DNA from: Actinoplanes sp. TBRC 11911
Lineage (GTDB): Bacteria; Actinomycetota; Actinomycetes; Mycobacteriales; Micromonosporaceae
DNA: 64,000 nt
Assembly (NCBI RefSeq): GCF_012933445.1
Contig: NZ_JABBNC010000014.1
Location: forward strand, 62,001 to 126,000
Direction of reading: 5' to 3'
Position numbers and translations under genes: made by a program. Position 1 is the first letter of the stretch. The number at the start of each line of letters is the position of its first letter. Positions 49,572-59,400 of this stretch are shown in pieces. The notes under the pieces are model-generated. The model was not told the DNA's origin. It made no database searches and saw only the letters and a list, made by a program, of their open reading frames with translations.

Positions 49572-52500
49572 TCAGGCTTTGGCTTTCGCCGGTCCCAGGA
49601 TGTCGGCGGTCTCCCGCGGATACGGTCCCCAGCCGTCGCGCAGCACGTGAATGTAGACGGCCTCGAGGCACACCCCGACACGCTCGGCCAGGTCGGTGTC
49701 GTCCTGCTTGCCGAGGCGTACGGCGCGGGCGAAGTGATCCAGCGCCTCCATGTGCCGGCCCTGATCGAAGCAGCTGCGTCCGGCGTTCTCGTGGACCACG
49801 CTGCGCAGCGCATCCGGAACGGCCGCACCGAGCGCCTTGGCGAACAGCCGGTCCGCCTCCTTGTGGTCCCCGCGCAGCCGCAGCACGTGCGCCAGCTCGG
49901 CCTGGGCGATCACCATCGACTGCGTGTCCCCGGCCGACTCCGCATGGGCGAGCGCGAGCCGGCTCGCCGCAGCGGCCATGCCGAGCTCGTTGAGCAGGCG
50001 GTACACCTCGGCCCGTACGCTCAGCAGCCCCGCCTTGGCGATGTTGTCCTCTTCGTCGGCGAGTGGCCCGTCGAGGCGTTCCCCCAGCTCCCGGAGCGCG
50101 TCCCGGTCATCGACGACTTCCCGCAGCGTCCCGCCGTCCAGCCGCCAGCGGATCGCTTCGAGGTCCGCCGCGGACAGCGCCGGCCGCTCCGTGCCGGTTT
50201 GATCCGATTCTTCGGTGGTGCCACCGCCGGACACGACCGCGGCCACCCGCTCGGCGACCTCGGCCCGTACCGCGGCCGGGTCGAGCCCCGACCGCGTCAC
50301 CGGTGGCGAGCCGTCCGAGGAGCGCACGGTGATCGACGGATCCCCGGTGATCGCGACCCCGTTGAGCAGCCCCGTGATGTCCATGTCCACGACGAGGTGC
50401 TCCTGCGCGGCGGCGGGCTGGGACTGTGCCGGAGCCGCGGCCGCGTTGCCGTTCGGCTCGGGGTGGTGGGGTGCACGCGCGGTCCCGCCCGTGGGACCGC
50501 GCTCGGCAGCGCGCTGATTCACGGCGGCCTGACCGTGCTGGTCCTGCGCCGCCCCCGCTCCGCCGCCGTGCGACTCGCGGGCCGCGGAAGCCTCGTCAGC
50601 GGCGCCTTCTCCACCACCCGCACCCGACGCCGGTTTGCCGGACTCCGGCTCCGCGGAGAACCACATCCCCCCGAACTCGCTGTCCCCGACCCGCAGCGGC
50701 TCCGGATCCGCCCCGGACAACTCCAGCCGCCCGATCGGCCGCAGATTGTGCAGCGTGCCATCGGCGTCCATATAGGGCGCCGCGTGCGCCCCCAGCCGAC
50801 GTTCCCCGTCGCCGTCCGCACCGCCCGGCGCGCTCGGACCCCCCACAGCCTCATGCCGAGGACCAGCCATTTCCCGTACGCCGGCGCCCTCCGCCCCCGC
50901 GCCACCCTTCTCGCGGGCCCCCGCATCGAGAGGCACCCGAGGCATCGGAACCGAAGCGACGCGCCCATCCCGCTCGGCGGCGTTTGGCTGGGCATCTTGT
51001 TGTTCGCCCGCCTGCCCGGCATGGCCCTCGCCTGTCCGCCCGTCCCCGGCCGGAACCGATCCGGCGTCCCGCGGACCCTGCGCCCGGCTCAAGGCAACAC
51101 GCGGATCCAGCGCCTGCGTGGTCGCCGACGCCTGAGCCGCACCGGCCCGCGGCACGTCCCCGGCCTGCGCTCCTCGCGACCCGCCCGCCGACTGTGCTTC
51201 CGGTCGCCGGCCCGGCACCGAGGGGGAGTTCGGCGCCGCTGTCTCCGCCGGTGGGGGAGCGCTACGCCGGCCCGACGTCTCCGCCGCATCGCGGTACTGC
51301 GGTGCCGCCGAGCCCTCACCCGACGTCCGTTCCGGCGCCACCGAGTGCGGCGTTGTCGGCGGCCCTTGGCCGCCCGAGGCCGACGGCGCGGGAGGCCGCG
51401 GCGCCGATGCGGGCGGTGTCTCGCGCGGCATACCCGCCTGCGTCTCGACCGCCCCCGCGCTCCGCTGGTCCGGCCCGGCCAATGTGGGCGCGGGCGAAGA
51501 CTGCCCAGGCGTTTGCGGCGCGGGCGCCGAAGGTCGCCCAGGCGTTTGCGGGGTGGGCGCGCCTTGGCGGTACGCCTGCGGCGGGACAGAACTCGGAGCT
51601 TGCGGTGCCGTCGCACCCGAGCGACCGCTCGGGTTAGAGCCAGACGCGGCGGGCGAACTGATCGGCGCGGTCGCCAACGTGGTCGGCCGCGGCGGCGCGC
51701 CGCCCGGCTCGTCCACCGGCATCGGCGGCCCGATCTGACTCGGCGCGTATGCGACGGTGGGCCGCCCAGAGACGTCCCCCGAGAAGCCAGACCGCGTTGC
51801 GTCCGGGCTCACCGCATCGCGGACGTCGTCGCCCTCCGCCGCCTGTCCCGGTCCAGACGCGACTCGCCCGACGCCAGGCGGCTGCGAAGCCGCCGGACGC
51901 GACGTGGGCTGGCCGTCGACTTCCCAGGCGCCAGCGGTCTGCTGCGTCGCGCTTGCGGGAAGGTCAGACTGGCCGCCCGAGGCCAACGGCGAGGCGGCCT
52001 GCCGCATGTCCGCCGGCGGCGACGCAGGCTGCCTTGTGTCGCGACCGGGGGCGACTGGCTGCCATGTCTCCGGCGTCGGTGGCGCAGGCTGGCGTGTGCC
52101 AGCGGACGGTGGAGCAGGCTGCCGTGGGCCGCCCGGCAGGGAAGTGGCCTGTCGTTGGTCGCCTGAGGGCGATGCGGCCGGCCGTTGCTCGGCCGACGGC
52201 GATGCGGCCTGCCGTGTATCAGGGCCGGGTGCGACCGGCCGCCAAGTTTCCGGCGCCGATGGCGCAGGCTGGCGTGTGCCAGCCGACGGTGAGGCCAGCT
52301 GTCGCGTGGCCGTTGGCGGGGAAGTGGCCTGCCGTTGCTCGCCCGACGGCGATGCGGCCTGCCGTGGGTCGGCGGGCTGCGGCGCGGGGTACCGTTGCTC
52401 CGCCGGCGGCGGTGCGGGCTGTCGTAGGTCGGCGGGCGGCGATGCGGGCTGCCGTGGGTCGGTCGGCAGCGTTGCGGGCTGCCGTTGCTCGGCCAACGGT

Positions 52501-55500
52501 GATGCCGTCTGCCATTGCTCGTGCGGCGGCGATCCGGGCTGCCCTAGGTCGATCGAGGGCGATGCGGTCAGTCGCGGGTCGGCCGAAGGCGACGCTGGCT
52601 GGCCTGGGGCGGCGGGCGGTGAAGCTGGGCGCCACGTGTCGGACGGCGCTGATGCCGGCTGACCCGTGGTCGCGAGCGCGTCCGCACCCGGCGATGCGGG
52701 CCAAGGCGTGGCCGCGGCAGCCCCCTGCGGGCGGGCCGTAGGCGTCGCTTGCTGGTTTGCATTCGCCGGGACCGAAGCCTCGTGTCCCGGATTCGCCGGT
52801 GCGGCAGCGGATGGCTGCGCGGCCGTCCGCTGAGCCGGCTGCGGTTGCGGAGTGGGCTGAGCCGAACCCGGTCGCTGCGGGGCAGTGCCCGAGACGGTCC
52901 CGTACGTGGCAGGGAACTGCGGGACGTCACCGACGCCGTGCGCCGAAGCGGCAGCCGCAGGCTGCGAAGCCGGACCTTGATTCGGAGCACCAGCATGCGG
53001 GACGGCCGGCGCGGCAGGAGCGCCCGGTCGCGGAGCCCCAGGCGACACCGGTCGCCCAAGCCCGGCGCTGGGCAACGCCGCAGGCGGCGCTTCGTCCGGC
53101 ACCATCGACCACGGCCCGTCCGAATCGGAAACAAGCACGTGTGCGGTGCGCGGGCTACGCCGCGAACGTGGCACATCCTGCGGATAAGGCATGCCGAGCC
53201 GCGACCCGGTGTCGGCCGGATCGCCGCCTTGCTCGACCGGCGCCGCCTCACTCCGCTGCGGCTCTCCCGCAACGCGCGGAGCATTCCCGAGACCCTGCGA
53301 CCCTTGCCACCCAGCCTGCGCGGACTGGCCACCCTGCACGCCCGGCGCCGCAGGCGGTACCGGCCCTGCCTGCGGCATGTATCCGCCCTGCGGAACCTGC
53401 CCGCCCTGCTGGACGTACCCCTCCTGCGGAACCCATCCACCTTGTTGAGCGTGCCCACCGTGCGGAGCCTGCCCGCCCTGAGCCGGACCGTAACCCACCT
53501 GAGCCGCGTACGGGGCCTCGCCAGTCTGCGACGATCCACCAGTGCCGTATCCGGCCGCTGGCCCCGGCGGAATCTGCCCATCTTGTACCGCGTACGGCCC
53601 GGCCGGTTGGTAGCCGACCGGCACACCACGTTGCGGGCCTTGCGGAGTCTGGGTTCCCTGCTGGACCGGTCCGTATGCGCCTTGCGCGCCATGTCCCGCC
53701 TGAGCAACCTGCGCGTTTTGGGCAGCATGCGGCCCCTGCGGAACTTGCTGACCGTACTGATTCGGCTGAGGCTGCCCGCCCGATGACCCATAGCCCTGAG
53801 CGGGAGGCTGGCCGCCCTGCGGCATTTGCCCGCCCTGCGCGGGATATCCACCCTGCGCGGCGAGAGCCGGCGGCTGCCCCTGCACGCCTTGCGGTGACGG
53901 CACGCCTTGCGGCCCGTAGCCGTACACCGGGGCCTGACCGCCCGGCAGACCCCCGCCACCGTTCGGCACCTGGCCGCCCTCAGGCGTCCACTCGTTCGGT
54001 GGCGTCGCGGCATATCCCTGAGCCGACGCCGCAAAGCCGTGCGGCGGCATGACGGGAACCTGGCCGTACTCGGCCGGCGGATACCCGCTTTGCGAGCTCT
54101 GGCCGCCATTCGGCATTTGTCCCGCTTGCGCTGCGGCGGCCGGTGCCACGGGACCACCCTGCGGAACCGAGCCCTGGCCCCGATACCCCTCTCGCCCGCC
54201 ATGCTGACTCAAGTCATGCGTAGGCCCCTGCGCCGGATAGCCCGCCGGCGAAGCCGCACCCCCATGAACCTGCGGCTCCGCACCGGCATATCCACCGGCG
54301 TACTCCTGCCCAGAAGCCGCCGCCGGCCGCACACCTTGACCACCCGCCGGCGCCCCACCCCGAGCAGGCGACGTAGGCATCGGCAACGTAGGCGCCCCCG
54401 CGGCCGGCACCACACGGGCCGGCGGCGTAGGCGCCGACGTCCCCACGACCTTGGGCGGCGCGACCGGCTCCGCCTTCTTGATCACCTTGGGCAGTGCCGG
54501 CGGCGCCTCCTTACGAACCACCCGCGGCTGCGCGGGCGGCGTCGCCTTGCTGATGACCCGAGGCGCGGACGACGCCGGACGCTCGTCGTCACCCCCGACG
54601 AGGTCATCCGGCCCGTACTCCTCGGTACGCGCCCCGCGCCGCGACACCGGCCGGAATCCGCGGTCGTAGTCGGCCGCCTCTTCCTCGTCCCGCGCACGCC
54701 GCGAGTCGTACGCGACCATGTCCTCGTCGCGCCCGCGCCGCCGATCCCACGACTCGTCCGCGCCCGGCCGCGCCTCGTCCGGCGACGAACCAGGCCGCCG
54801 CCGCTCACCGTCAAGCGGCGGCCGGCGCCGCTCCTTCTCAGCCGGCGCCGGGGGCCGCCGCACCTCTCCCTCAACCGGCACCGAAGCTGCCGAGCGACGC
54901 CGCTCGCCCTCAACCGGCCGCCGTCGATCAACCTCAACGTCAAAATCCGCGTCCACCGGCCGCCGACGATCCCGGCGCTCGTCGCGATGCGGCTCCTGCT
55001 CACGCCGCCGCTCCGGCGCCGCCTCCCCACGCCGCCCTCGCCGCCCCCAGCGCCCACGCTTCTGGTGCTCCTCCGGCGACGGCCCATTGGCCCCGACGAC
55101 CTTGGCGCCCCCGGCACCTTCCCGATGGTCGTACGGCTCATCGATGTCGTCCGCGAAATCCCCGAACCGGTCGTCGCGCCTCGCCGCCGGGCCGACCCCG
55201 AACTCGGGCGAATCGAAATCGGCCCCCAGCTCAGGCCGGTTGAAGTCGACATCGTCGAACTCGCTGCCGGCCAGATTCGGCCGCGACGTGTCGATCGGGA
55301 CGAAGTCCGGGTCGTCGAGCCAGCTGGGCCGCGCCGCGTCGAACGAGCCCCGCCCGCCACCGGCGCGCCGCTGCCGCCGTTCGGCCAGCTCGTCCACCGA
55401 CTGGTCGGGATCAGACGGGCGCCGCCGGGTCGGGATCACCGGGTCCGGTTCGCTCCGCTTCGTGAAGTGGCGTTCCTGCACGACGGCGGTGTTCGGCATG

Positions 55501-55553
55501 AGCGAGTACTGGTCGTACTCCTCTTCCCAATATTCGTCGTCCTCGAAGCTCAT
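49572..55553 (-). CDS. Giant (1993-residue) disordered protein with decapeptide repeats and C-terminal TPR domain
   Basis: One uninterrupted frame from ATG 55553. Residues 1-130 are acidic (SFEDDEYWEEEYDQYSL; PDFVPIDTSRPNL). Residues ~140-330 are strongly Arg/Glu-rich (RRGRRGEAAPERRREQEPH). Residues ~350-800 are Pro/Gln/Gly-rich (VPQGGYMPQAG, QAGWQGSQG). Residues ~960-1193 include 23 decapeptide repeats of RQPASPPADP type. Residues ~1200-1700 are Pro/Ser/Ala/Thr-rich. The last ~160 residues are a TPR-like helical domain (LSVRAEVYRLLNELGMAAAASRLALAHAE, RGDHKEADRLFAKAL, HMEALDHFARAVRLG). No signal peptide. Only the TPR end looks broadly conserved. Possibly a scaffold or phase-separating protein; function unknown. 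Confidence 0.85.
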   Translation of the reverse strand: MSFEDDEYWEEEYDQYSLMPNTAVVQERHFTKRSEPDPVIPTRRRPSDPDQSVDELAERRQRRAGGGRGSFDAARPSWLDDPDFVPIDTSRPNLAGSEFDDVDFNRPELGADFDSPEFGVGPAARRDDRFGDFADDIDEPYDHREGAGGAKVVGANGPSPEEHQKRGRWGRRGRRGEAAPERRREQEPHRDERRDRRRPVDADFDVEVDRRRPVEGERRRSAASVPVEGEVRRPPAPAEKERRRPPLDGERRRPGSSPDEARPGADESWDRRRGRDEDMVAYDSRRARDEEEAADYDRGFRPVSRRGARTEEYGPDDLVGGDDERPASSAPRVISKATPPAQPRVVRKEAPPALPKVIKKAEPVAPPKVVGTSAPTPPARVVPAAGAPTLPMPTSPARGGAPAGGQGVRPAAASGQEYAGGYAGAEPQVHGGAASPAGYPAQGPTHDLSQHGGREGYRGQGSVPQGGPVAPAAAAQAGQMPNGGQSSQSGYPPAEYGQVPVMPPHGFAASAQGYAATPPNEWTPEGGQVPNGGGGLPGGQAPVYGYGPQGVPSPQGVQGQPPALAAQGGYPAQGGQMPQGGQPPAQGYGSSGGQPQPNQYGQQVPQGPHAAQNAQVAQAGHGAQGAYGPVQQGTQTPQGPQRGVPVGYQPAGPYAVQDGQIPPGPAAGYGTGGSSQTGEAPYAAQVGYGPAQGGQAPHGGHAQQGGWVPQEGYVQQGGQVPQGGYMPQAGPVPPAAPGVQGGQSAQAGWQGSQGLGNAPRVAGEPQRSEAAPVEQGGDPADTGSRLGMPYPQDVPRSRRSPRTAHVLVSDSDGPWSMVPDEAPPAALPSAGLGRPVSPGAPRPGAPAAPAVPHAGAPNQGPASQPAAAASAHGVGDVPQFPATYGTVSGTAPQRPGSAQPTPQPQPAQRTAAQPSAAAPANPGHEASVPANANQQATPTARPQGAAAATPWPASPGADALATTGQPASAPSDTWRPASPPAAPGQPASPSADPRLTASPSIDLGQPGSPPHEQWQTASPLAEQRQPATLPTDPRQPASPPADLRQPAPPPAEQRYPAPQPADPRQAASPSGEQRQATSPPTATRQLASPSAGTRQPAPSAPETWRPVAPGPDTRQAASPSAEQRPAASPSGDQRQATSLPGGPRQPAPPSAGTRQPAPPTPETWQPVAPGRDTRQPASPPADMRQAASPLASGGQSDLPASATQQTAGAWEVDGQPTSRPAASQPPGVGRVASGPGQAAEGDDVRDAVSPDATRSGFSGDVSGRPTVAYAPSQIGPPMPVDEPGGAPPRPTTLATAPISSPAASGSNPSGRSGATAPQAPSSVPPQAYRQGAPTPQTPGRPSAPAPQTPGQSSPAPTLAGPDQRSAGAVETQAGMPRETPPASAPRPPAPSASGGQGPPTTPHSVAPERTSGEGSAAPQYRDAAETSGRRSAPPPAETAAPNSPSVPGRRPEAQSAGGSRGAQAGDVPRAGAAQASATTQALDPRVALSRAQGPRDAGSVPAGDGRTGEGHAGQAGEQQDAQPNAAERDGRVASVPMPRVPLDAGAREKGGAGAEGAGVREMAGPRHEAVGGPSAPGGADGDGERRLGAHAAPYMDADGTLHNLRPIGRLELSGADPEPLRVGDSEFGGMWFSAEPESGKPASGAGGGEGAADEASAARESHGGGAGAAQDQHGQAAVNQRAAERGPTGGTARAPHHPEPNGNAAAAPAQSQPAAAQEHLVVDMDITGLLNGVAITGDPSITVRSSDGSPPVTRSGLDPAAVRAEVAERVAAVVSGGGTTEESDQTGTERPALSAADLEAIRWRLDGGTLREVVDDRDALRELGERLDGPLADEEDNIAKAGLLSVRAEVYRLLNELGMAAAASRLALAHAESAGDTQSMVIAQAELAHVLRLRGDHKEADRLFAKALGAAVPDALRSVVHENAGRSCFDQGRHMEALDHFARAVRLGKQDDTDLAERVGVCLEAVYIHVLRDGWGPYPRETADILGPAKAKA
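51975..52664 (-). repeat. 23 tandem decapeptide (30-bp) repeats inside the giant gene
   Basis: 690 bp, exactly 23 units of 30 bp with no length change. Consensus (R/G)-Q-P-A-S-P-x-A-D-x. Some units recur in the same order (for example RQPAPPSAGT, RQPAPPTPET, WQPVAPGRDT, echoing RQLASPSAGT, RQPAPSAPET, WRPVAPGPDT), showing higher-order duplication by unequal exchange. Confidence 0.92.
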
Positions 55554-56303
55554 ACGGCGGCCCCGGGACAACCGAAAACGAACGCGAAGCGGCCGGGGGA
55601 GTGCTTCTCACCCCGTCGCCGCATCGTTCCCCCGTTCCTGACCCCATGTCCCGTACGCGTCCGGATCGTCCCTCCGCGCGATGGATGTGGAAGGTTAACC
55701 ATGGATTTGCGAAGCGCGCTACCAGCCCCCCGGTGCGCTTCGTACGGCGCCGCGATCATGTCATGACCCTCGGTGGATCACGTCCGGCTTCGCCGCCGCC
55801 CGGCTCCCTTCGGCGGAGAGTACGTGTTCGGGCGGGGAACAGTTCAAATGCCGGGAGCTCCTATGGAGATCGTCGATGCGATCCGGGGTGGACGGCGTTC
55901 GCGGCGCCCGGGTTACTTAAGCAATTCTTAAACCCGAATTGAGGATCCCCACGGATAACGGCCGACCCTGTTCGAGCGACCCGGCAGCCGCCGTGACGCC
56001 ACGTGACACATCAGACGTGGCGCATCACACCCCCGCCGCGGGCGGATCAAGGTAGGCATGGATGTCACGGTTGAGGGGCTCACCCATGAGCCTCGGATCC
56101 CGATTCCCCCGGCCGGCGGCTACCGCAATCCCGTCAATGCGGGCCCGCCACCGTGTCCTCACCTGGGACGCTCGCACCGAGATGCCCCCCATCGGGTGCG
56201 AGGTCACATCGGCGCGGATCGGCCGGGAAGGAACGGCGGCGGGGTGCACACCGCCGCCGTTCCGCCAAACCTTTTTGTCGTACGAGAGCGGTAGCGTTTG
56301 TCC
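55554..56303. other. Long divergent intergenic region
   Basis: 750 bases with no convincing gene. It holds promoters for the giant gene (minus) and pirin (plus), an AT-rich patch (TTACTTAAGCAATTCTTAAAC near 55912, truncated here), and three hairpins: an 8-bp stem CGAAGCGC/GCGCTTCG at 55710-55742, an 8-bp stem CGCCACGT/ACGTGGCG at 55997-56022, and the terminator-like structure at 56230-56276. Confidence 0.5.
56230..56276 (+). terminator. Intrinsic-terminator-like hairpin upstream of pirin
   Basis: Perfect 13-bp stem GGAACGGCGGCGG (56230-56242) and CCGCCGCCGTTCC (56251-56263), 8-base loop, then TTTTT at 56272-56276. A run of Ts after a stem is rare in this GC-rich DNA. It lies 28 bases before the pirin start, so it either ends an unannotated upstream transcript or acts as an attenuator of pirin. 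Confidence 0.6.
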
Positions 56304-58060: not shown

Positions 58061-58200
58061 GGGTGCCCCTACGCTGCCCTGCCGGCAAACGCCGCTGGTC
58101 ACACCAGTTACGGTCGGTCGCCGTGCCCGGGTTCGCGCGCCGCGCGCCGACGCCGGGCGACGTGGCTTGACGATGGCCGCCTGCGGCCGGGGTGGGTGCG

Positions 58201-58490
58201 CTGGGCGGCCATGCGGGCGGCGTGCGTGGTGGCGCGGTGTGGGGCGGGTCGCGGTGCGGGGGTGGGTGCGCTGGGCGGCCATGCGGGCGGCGTGCGTGGT
58301 GGCGCGGTGTGGGGCGGGTCGCGGTGCGGGGGTGGGTGTGCTGGGCGGCCATGCGGGCGGCGTGCGTGGTGGCGCGGTGTGGGGCGGGTCGCGGTGCGGG
58401 GGTGGGTGCGCTGGGTGGCCATGCGGGCGGCGTGCGTGGTGGCGCGGTTTGCGGCCGGTCGCCGAGCGAGGGTGGATGCGCTGCATGGCC
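58201..58490. repeat. 70-bp tandem repeats, four copies plus a partial
   Basis: Units begin at 58201, 58271, 58341 and 58411 with CTGGGCGGCCATGCGGGCGG; the first three are nearly identical, the fourth is diverged in its second half, and a remnant follows. 70 is not a multiple of three, so frames rotate through the array, and all six frames stay open because of the GC bias; it is not coding. Confidence 0.9.
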
Positions 58491-59057: not shown

Positions 59058-59400
59058 GGGCTTGAGTCCGGCTCCTCCGTGATCGGCCCCGGTGGGCGGC
59101 GCGCGGGTCAACGGCAGTGGGCTTGAGCCCAGCACCGTCGTGGTCGGCGCCGCGGTGGCCGGCATGCGGGTCAACGGCAGTGGGCTTGAGCCCAGCACCG
59201 TCGTGGTCGGCGCCGCGGTGGCCGGCATGCGGGTCAACGGCAGTGGGCTTGAGCCCAGCACCGTCGTGATCGGCGTCGCGGTGGCCGGCATGCAGGTCAA
59301 CGGCAGTGGCCTTGAGCGCAGCGCTTTCGTGATCGGCAGCGGTCGGCCGGCGCGCCGGTCAGCGGAAGCGGCTTGACCCCAGCACCCTCGTGACCGCCAC
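59058..59400. repeat. 63-bp tandem repeats derived from the 3' end of the PPOX gene
   Basis: Clear units begin at 59104, 59167 and 59230 (CGGGTCAACGGCAGTGGGCTTGAGC...), with degenerate ones at ~59060, ~59293 and the last inside the PPOX gene. On the minus strand each unit matches the gene's final codons (VTRVLGSS) and the bases just after its stop. A one-base difference inside the gene's own copy creates the TGA stop. Confidence 0.85.

Follow-up and report, generated by a model that had tools for sequence, protein, structure and literature searches.

What kind of protein, if any, is encoded by a single open frame of some 6 kb in Actinoplanes sp. TBRC 11911 is the question raised by this locus. 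Within the window (the whole stretch of DNA analysed, 64,000 nucleotides), the open frame spans 49572..55571 (-), and a start motif conserved among the orthologues places its beginning at the ATG at 55553; the gene thus runs over 49572..55553 (-), with its stop at 49572, and encodes a protein of 1993 aa, here termed A. An earlier note had described one unbroken frame that joins acidic, Arg-rich, Gln/Gly/Pro-rich and Pro/Ser-rich blocks in a continuous, mostly disordered and apparently cytoplasmic protein of scaffold-like make-up. This description is supported: the blocks are found in the composition of the translated frame, and hydropathy alone revealed neither a membrane segment nor a signal peptide, the best 19-aa mean being 1.07 at aa 1719 and no maximum lying at the N-terminus.

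It could be objected that several genes, or a pseudogene, have been read or assembled as one, because GC3 drops to 0.68-0.80 in mid-gene compared with 0.90-0.95 in the neighbours, and frameshifted copies occur in Actinoplanes subtropicus (L128/L046) and in genome G028 (L052). Such an artefact is extremely improbable and is already contradicted by the orthologues, 35 of which begin at this same start and encode 1428-2561 aa; the drop in GC3 is conserved too, with the linker lower than the cap in 35/36 A proteins. Of 37 A loci where the N-terminal islands were found, 36 have them in one open frame with the C-terminal TPR domain. This indicates that the N-terminal part belongs to the protein, and argues against production of the TPR part alone. 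Out of 44 A loci in total, 35 have an in-frame start motif and were taken as full-length. L132 is likewise full-length but falls outside the 35, since the start pattern missed its start; six loci are cut by a contig end, L128 is frameshifted, and L140 has no N-terminal part. Seven of the 44 loci are thus without N-terminal islands, mostly owing to contig ends. The 36 full-length A proteins referred to below are the 35 orthologues and the window protein.

Comparison of these 36 proteins revealed short conserved islands in a fixed order, separated by linkers that cannot be aligned. Four islands and the cap are present in all of them: I1 (aa 1-44, 55422..55553 (-)), an acidic-aromatic N-terminus of the MSFEDDEYW..EY type whose 36/36 count is partly by construction, as the full-length rows were chosen by the same start; I2 (aa 50-135, 55149..55406 (-); RPSWLDDPDF ... 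DFNRPELGADFD); I3 (aa 330-372, 54438..54566 (-)), a series of P[RK]V[VI] motifs; and I5 (aa 1592-1634, 50652..50780 (-); PYMDADGTLHNLRPIGRLELSG...), which is also found in 45/45 A rows and reaches a mean pLDDT of 84 over aa 1595-1604 in an AlphaFold2 model. The [PA][RK]V[VI] motif was observed 147 times, against 6.9 expected from shuffles. I4 (aa 795-825, 53079..53171 (-); RSRRSPRTAHV...DGPWSMVPDE) occurs in 27/36 proteins, and the weaker I6 (aa 1719-1771, 50241..50399 (-)) in 22/36. Trp residues in the islands have 2.38 acidic neighbours within four residues, compared with 1.72 for linker Trp.

The composition of the linkers is kept by position, though their sequence is not. The polyampholyte comes first: linker I2-I3 (aa 136-329, 54567..55148 (-)) is rich in Arg, Asp and Glu, which make up a fraction of 0.38 +- 0.06 across the 36 proteins; among the first three linkers, it has the largest such fraction in 27/27 proteins with all islands. 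Linker I3-I4 (aa 373-794, 53172..54437 (-)) is rich in Gly, Gln, Pro and Ala. I5-TPR linkers shorter than 60 aa (3/36) were omitted from this analysis. What A retains appears to be the order of its motifs and the composition of its blocks; sequence, length and repeats are not kept.

The earlier note had placed most weight on a decapeptide array, which lies within linker I4-I5 (aa 964-1193, 51975..52664 (-)). Its 23 units are indeed all in register without a phase slip; lag-10 identity is 0.445 over aa 967-1196, whereas 2000 shuffles averaged 0.129 and reached 0.214 at most. The label given to the units, RQPASPPADP, is loose: the decapeptides are real, with positions 1-6 mainly kept, and individual units share between 4 and 9 of their 10 residues with the consensus. 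Perfect spacing had been read as selection on frame. This is not supported, since orthologues of A have different repeats with different periods, and perfect spacing is therefore a trait of local expansion. Nor is the array a key or conserved feature: a profile built from its units found it in none of the 35 orthologues of full length (L104 gave a single isolated 10-mer match), array pieces aligned at more than 30 bits in none of 22 orthologues, and the nearest relative examined (L231, cap ~90% identical) has no such array, so that turnover occurs species by species. Between units, the Nei-Gojobori dN/dS is ~0.48 as a raw ratio, uncalibrated by offset frames or simulation, and codon positions 1, 2 and 3 diverge by 0.39, 0.27 and 0.52, respectively; at most, mild selection on residues may act on the units. 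Judged by these comparisons, the array is probably species-specific filler.

The TPR cap (aa 1793-1981, 49611..50177 (-)) was identified by a Pfam match, by homologues and by an AlphaFold2 model. The domain proposed earlier is thus confirmed, with a size nearer 190 than ~160 residues. TPR_12 (PF13424) matches aa 1883-1947 with 31.3 bits, above the gathering cut-off of 30.1, and pLDDT exceeds 90 over most of aa ~1805-1980. The cap is predicted to be a right-handed TPR solenoid of four or so helix pairs, a fold that serves elsewhere in peptide binding. All its structural neighbours are TPR domains, and many come from adaptors that bind peptides, such as kinesin light chain, LGN and BtubC. They tell little of function because such domains are generic; out of 978 chains compared with the cap model, 917 reach a Z of 8 or more by VIA-align 2. 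None of the curated families (Pfam, PADLOC, PHROG, NF-type profiles) covers the whole protein. A defence or phage protein was considered and rejected, as PADLOC gave no match and PHROG one weak match (E 0.0035).

A second giant protein, paralogue B, accompanies A in 36/36 genomes of the genus; the strain's own copy lies at L031:10602-15869. The A cap is 40-48% identical to B caps (~43% as a round figure), and one profile spans both. The two also share a giant disordered linker rich in PVS and a conserved acidic-aromatic N-terminus; these N-termini are unrelated, and both contain conserved Trp. B differs in two respects: its TPR is followed by a WG beta-repeat domain (PF14903, E 1.1e-21), for which a Pfam search of A gave nothing even at E 1, and its N-terminus is EPxWxxExTxEW..PGQRYPGD. 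The PGQ.YPGD motif occurs in 22/26 B proteins and 11/19 other-genus proteins, but in 0/36 A proteins, which have islands I1-I5 of their own. A relative is present in 294 of 300 Micromonosporaceae genomes. Together with the 36/36 count, this indicates that these genes are maintained and are not junk. Beyond the family, matches were either weak or confined to a single domain. The first order-level sample comprised 24 genomes; the cap matches in other families were weak (G046, E 1.8e-6; G039, E 8.5e-4), 4 of 394 genomes of the class outside the family had single-domain matches with E up to 1e-10, and another actinobacterial family has a free-standing cap homologue of 179 aa (L185). Actinoplanes-type bacteria possess two very long, mostly unstructured proteins with short conserved stretches and a folded end of the peptide-binding type, between which the sequence evolves fast, and both look like internal scaffolds.

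PopZ-type polar scaffolds of bacteria combine a small folded part with an acidic, Pro-rich disordered spacer and are proposed to be multivalent. A resembles them in this architecture; it is ten-fold longer, and its folded part is a TPR domain. The cap shares its predicted solenoid fold with the solved TPR structures of kinesin light chain, LGN and BtubC at 15-25% sequence identity. Those domains have a groove for short peptides, and excerpts from PMC6214655 describe intramolecular ligands for kinesin light chain. The A cap differs in being ~190 residues on a bacterial disordered chain, with no coiled coil, GoLoco motif or tubulin partner. SspA of Actinoplanes missouriensis, according to excerpts from PMC13293333, is likewise a disordered protein of this genus; it has 191 aa, a signal peptide and no TPR, and is anchored by sortase on the spore surface, whereas A ends in a soluble TPR domain and has no signal peptide or sorting signal by hydropathy.

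The reading put forward here, to which we give about an even chance, is that A is a full-length cytoplasmic scaffold of the sticker-and-spacer kind, whose cap and islands recruit partners across disordered linkers. The cap would hold one partner, or an acidic-aromatic island of A itself, on its own or on another chain; further partners would be held by the islands, and the long linkers would set reach and permit many weak simultaneous contacts. A complex or a condensate would be organised in this way, and the array, as a local linker expansion, would tune length or density only. We infer the partners, localisation and condensation of A; the literature searches made here returned nothing on A or on its partner, localisation, expression or condensation. 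This reading is consistent with the fixed island order (36/36), the positional linker composition, the frame kept in 36/37 loci, the maintenance of both paralogues in the genus and of a relative across the family, the high-confidence cap prediction with its peptide-binding neighbours, and the over-represented linker motifs described below. Against it stand the generic TPR fold, the negative cap charge given below, the islands without a second copy, and the neighbourhood. Own-genome searches with the N-terminal islands, the B N-terminus and I5 each recovered nothing but the gene itself above noise (next-best E 0.06, 1.3 and 0.2, respectively); a motif shared with other proteins of the genome is thus rejected, and no partner shares the islands. 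A is surrounded by genes for a MacB-type exporter, an EamA transporter, pirin and DUF2252, and B by aldo/keto reductase, CobU/CobT and ABC-2 genes; no conserved neighbour indicating a pathway was found around either.

A kinesin-light-chain-type cap might instead bind acidic-aromatic islands of the protein to which it belongs (DEYWxxEY at the A N-terminus; EPxWxxExTxEW for B). The protein would then inhibit itself in cis or polymerise in trans, and partners would open these states. In Foldseek rankings, kinesin light chain TPRs lead the list for the A cap model and are the top TPR proteins for the model of a B-type tail; their ligands, according to excerpts from PMC6214655, include W-acidic peptides, Y-acidic peptides and an LFP-acidic stretch within the same molecule. 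The acidic-aromatic character of both unrelated N-termini, with their conserved Trp, and the conserved hairpin-like I5 with its raised model confidence also fit. However, the kinesin light chain match is generic: a Deinococcus TPR protein (17.2) and LGN (16.4) exceed it (14.2) in VIA-align 2 Z, and designed TPR proteins score far better by sequence profile. The island Trp are just somewhat richer in acidic neighbours, and the net charge of the cap (-8, median of 36 proteins) does not favour binding of acidic islands. Such a closed loop is considered unlikely. A bolder form is a long shot: a motorless kinesin-light-chain logic in Micromonosporaceae, in which the cap, on a leash of one to two thousand residues, binds its own W/Y-acidic islands and forms loops or a head-to-tail condensate. 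If true, condensate density would be set by fast-changing linkers and used for hyphal tips, septa or sporangia, and duplication with loss of the WG domain would have given Actinoplanes a second such scaffold.

Linkers and array might also be nearly neutral low-complexity growth around a TPR domain that alone matters, as their turnover in each species and the free-standing homologue L185 would suggest. This idea is already disfavoured, and rather improbable, given the four non-TPR islands in fixed order in 36/36 proteins (I1 partly by construction), the positional composition, the preserved frame and the array dN/dS of ~0.48. It is similarly doubtful that A is a cytoplasmic sensor or transcription-linked regulator, Rap/NprR- or NsdA-like, with disordered arms that capture partners. 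Rap, NprR and PlcR are among the structural neighbours of the cap, and the cap weakly matches the NsdA family (NF053720; E 2e-4), but at 20.9 bits, far under the curated cut-off of 75; Pfam found no DNA-binding domain in A, and A has no conserved regulatory neighbour.

The wider interest lies in a protein that no curated family spans in full, that is present in nearly all examined genomes of a large antibiotic-producing family and that is duplicated in Actinoplanes. If the scaffold reading is true, A would offer a handle on the building of hyphae and sporangia in Micromonosporaceae, and the orthologue set forms a natural experiment on what evolution retains in a disordered protein.

Two short motifs are over-represented in the linkers relative to shuffles: PVS (180 vs 29 in A, 430 vs 38 in B, 204 vs 13 in other genera) and, in A, GRAxV (61 vs 5). 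The window protein, with 2 PVS and 6 P[VA]SP only, is a poor example of the former. As genome-wide motifs both were rejected: in a sample of 478,901 bases (20 own-genome stretches, the window and L031; 2434 frames of at least 100 aa), the B protein alone stands out for PVS (20 vs 0.8). One frame in this sample has 3 GRAxV vs 0.5 and looks non-coding. Upstream of A, a conserved block (55684..55708 (-)) has a GTGGTTAACCTTCCAC-like core. A regulon was rejected because a search of the own genome that tolerated up to 3 mismatches gave a single copy; across A loci the core recurs with no more than 2 mismatches in 33/36, 73-161 nt 5' of the start.

The gene of the giant disordered protein A lies on the minus strand of the window at 49572-55553. 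The single frame of 1993 residues proposed in the earlier note was borne out: it is open from window 55571, and a conserved start ATG lies at 55553. One open frame is common to the N-terminal islands and the C-terminal TPR domain at 36 of the 37 A loci holding both, the exception being that of Actinoplanes subtropicus. The gene is frameshifted in L128 and L046 (A. subtropicus) and in L052 (G028); other species carry intact copies. P, A, G, S, Q, R, D, E or T account for 81% of the residues, and the protein contains 18 Lys and 2 Cys. The TPR domain that the same note placed at the C-terminus (the cap, aa 1793-1981) is supported by a Pfam match, and its TPR fold is predicted by a structure model with pLDDT mostly above 90.

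The window protein, cut into 50-residue pieces, was compared with 22 A orthologues at a threshold of 30 bits, with shuffled pieces as control. Only pieces in aa 1-150, 301-400, 776-850, 1551-1650 and from about 1776 onward reached the threshold, besides marginal ones at aa 126-175, 826-875 and 1701-1800; none of the shuffled pieces did. In profile searches, islands I1 (aa 1-44), I2 (50-135), I3 (330-372) and I5 (1592-1634) and the TPR domain were found in identical order in all 36 full-length A proteins, the presence of I1 being partly by construction because full-length rows were chosen via the start motif. I4 (795-825) was found in 27 and I6 (1719-1771) in 22 of them. When truncated proteins are counted too (45 A rows in total), I1 and I2 each occurred in 37, I3 in 38, and I5 and TPR in 45. 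I1, I2, I3, I5 and I6 had no match in 26 proteins of the paralogue B and 44 other-genus proteins; I4 had seven marginal matches there.

The first three linkers between islands vary from 123 to 1332 aa across A proteins. The first, a polyampholyte with a net charge close to zero, has an Arg+Asp+Glu share of 0.38, the highest of the three in all 27 proteins with all islands. The Gln/Gly share sorts the linkers less well, peaking in I3-I4 for 13 of the 27. Together, island order and linker composition indicate that block order is kept and sequence is not. In the otherwise unalignable linkers, the tripeptide PVS occurs far more often than expected (observed vs expected: A, 180 vs 29; B, 430 vs 38; other genera, 204 vs 13). 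By region, mean GC3 is 0.91 in the cap and 0.79 in the I3-I5 linker, the linker being lower in 35 of 36 genes. This dip (window 50781-54437, and the linkers of 35 orthologues) falls where the encoded residues require high GC at the first and second codon positions.

The 23-decapeptide array described earlier is real (aa 964-1193, within the I4-I5 linker). Its units diverge with dN/dS of about 0.48 and by 0.39, 0.27 and 0.52 at codon positions 1, 2 and 3, which indicates mild selection on their first six residues. The array is absent from all 35 other full-length A orthologues and from L231, the nearest relative fetched, where a period-10 patch has an unlike sequence; of the further loci beside L231, L232, L233 and L235 duplicate contigs of the set, and L234 is truncated. 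Strongly periodic patches, one or more per protein, occur in 35 of 36 full-length A proteins, with periods of 5 to 55 residues at differing positions.

The cap is present in 38 of 60 relatives searched. All 36 same-genus genomes, the own one included, hold two copies, one 74-90% identical to the window cap (A) and one 40-48% identical (B); weak matches occurred in 2 of 24 genomes from other families of the order. Within the family, 294 of 300 genomes had a match, and all 67 same-genus genomes had at least two; five of the six without a match are fragmented or incomplete, and G200 is neither. A B-tail profile matched 7 of 394 class genomes at E up to 1e-10: three of these genomes are the own one and others of the family, and four lie outside the family with single-domain matches. 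One of the four matches is a free-standing 179-aa TPR protein homologous to the cap, from another actinobacterial family (L185:1558-2097, minus strand).

Scanning 84,980 species genomes gave 222 matches. Among the best 80, A was found in Actinoplanes, Paractinoplanes, Couchioplanes, Pseudosporangium, Winogradskya, Mangrovihabitans and others, an intermediate form in Spirilliplanes, and B-type proteins in Hamadaea, Plantactinospora, Phytohabitans, Micromonospora, Catellatospora, Dactylosporangium, Asanoa and others. In a 40-cap tree, whose root and Micromonospora rows are unsure, A and Spirilliplanes form one clade (support 99/92) and Actinoplanes B a separate one (100/99). In B-type proteins a WG beta-repeat domain follows the TPR domain; a Pfam search found none in A. 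The modelled B-type protein of Micromonospora pattaloongensis (L150) shows TPR followed by a strand-rich domain, which Foldseek pairs with propellers.

A may assemble as a scaffold or condensate, in which the cap and islands would bind partners and many weak contacts could form along the chain. A closed loop, in which the cap would act like a kinesin light chain TPR and bind acidic-aromatic islands of its own chain, is improbable. Foldseek did rank kinesin light chain TPRs, which bind peptides according to PMC6214655 and PMC13078783, first for the A cap, and the N-termini of A and B both look acidic-aromatic; however, the match is generic, the cap is negatively charged, and the acid excess around island Trp is small.

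Disordered scaffolds that bear a folded module are already known, and A/B is a new, family-restricted variant. A had no NCBIfam or PADLOC match and no strong PHROG match; Pfam coverage is limited to TPR and WG repeats, the latter in B. Literature searches listed nothing on this protein, and the sole known disordered Actinoplanes protein they turned up was SspA, a secreted surface protein of 191 aa (PMC13293333).

Counted by relatives of each neighbouring gene inside the fetched stretches, a MacB-type permease lies near A at 20 of 22 loci, pirin and DUF2252 at 18 each and EamA at 15, and an aldo/keto reductase lies near B at 25/25 other B loci and 19/20 other-genus loci; no pathway is suggested by the neighbours at these loci. 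Upstream, 73-161 nt before the A start, is a conserved block with core GTGGTTAACCTTCCAC (window 55684-55708), found with up to 2 mismatches at 33 of 36 A loci and in single copy in the own genome. Outside the A gene, a 70-bp tandem repeat (58189-58483) has 4.2 copies, 95% alike, and a 63-bp repeat (59058-59393) has 5.4 copies and may encode 21-residue repeats in a neighbouring frame.
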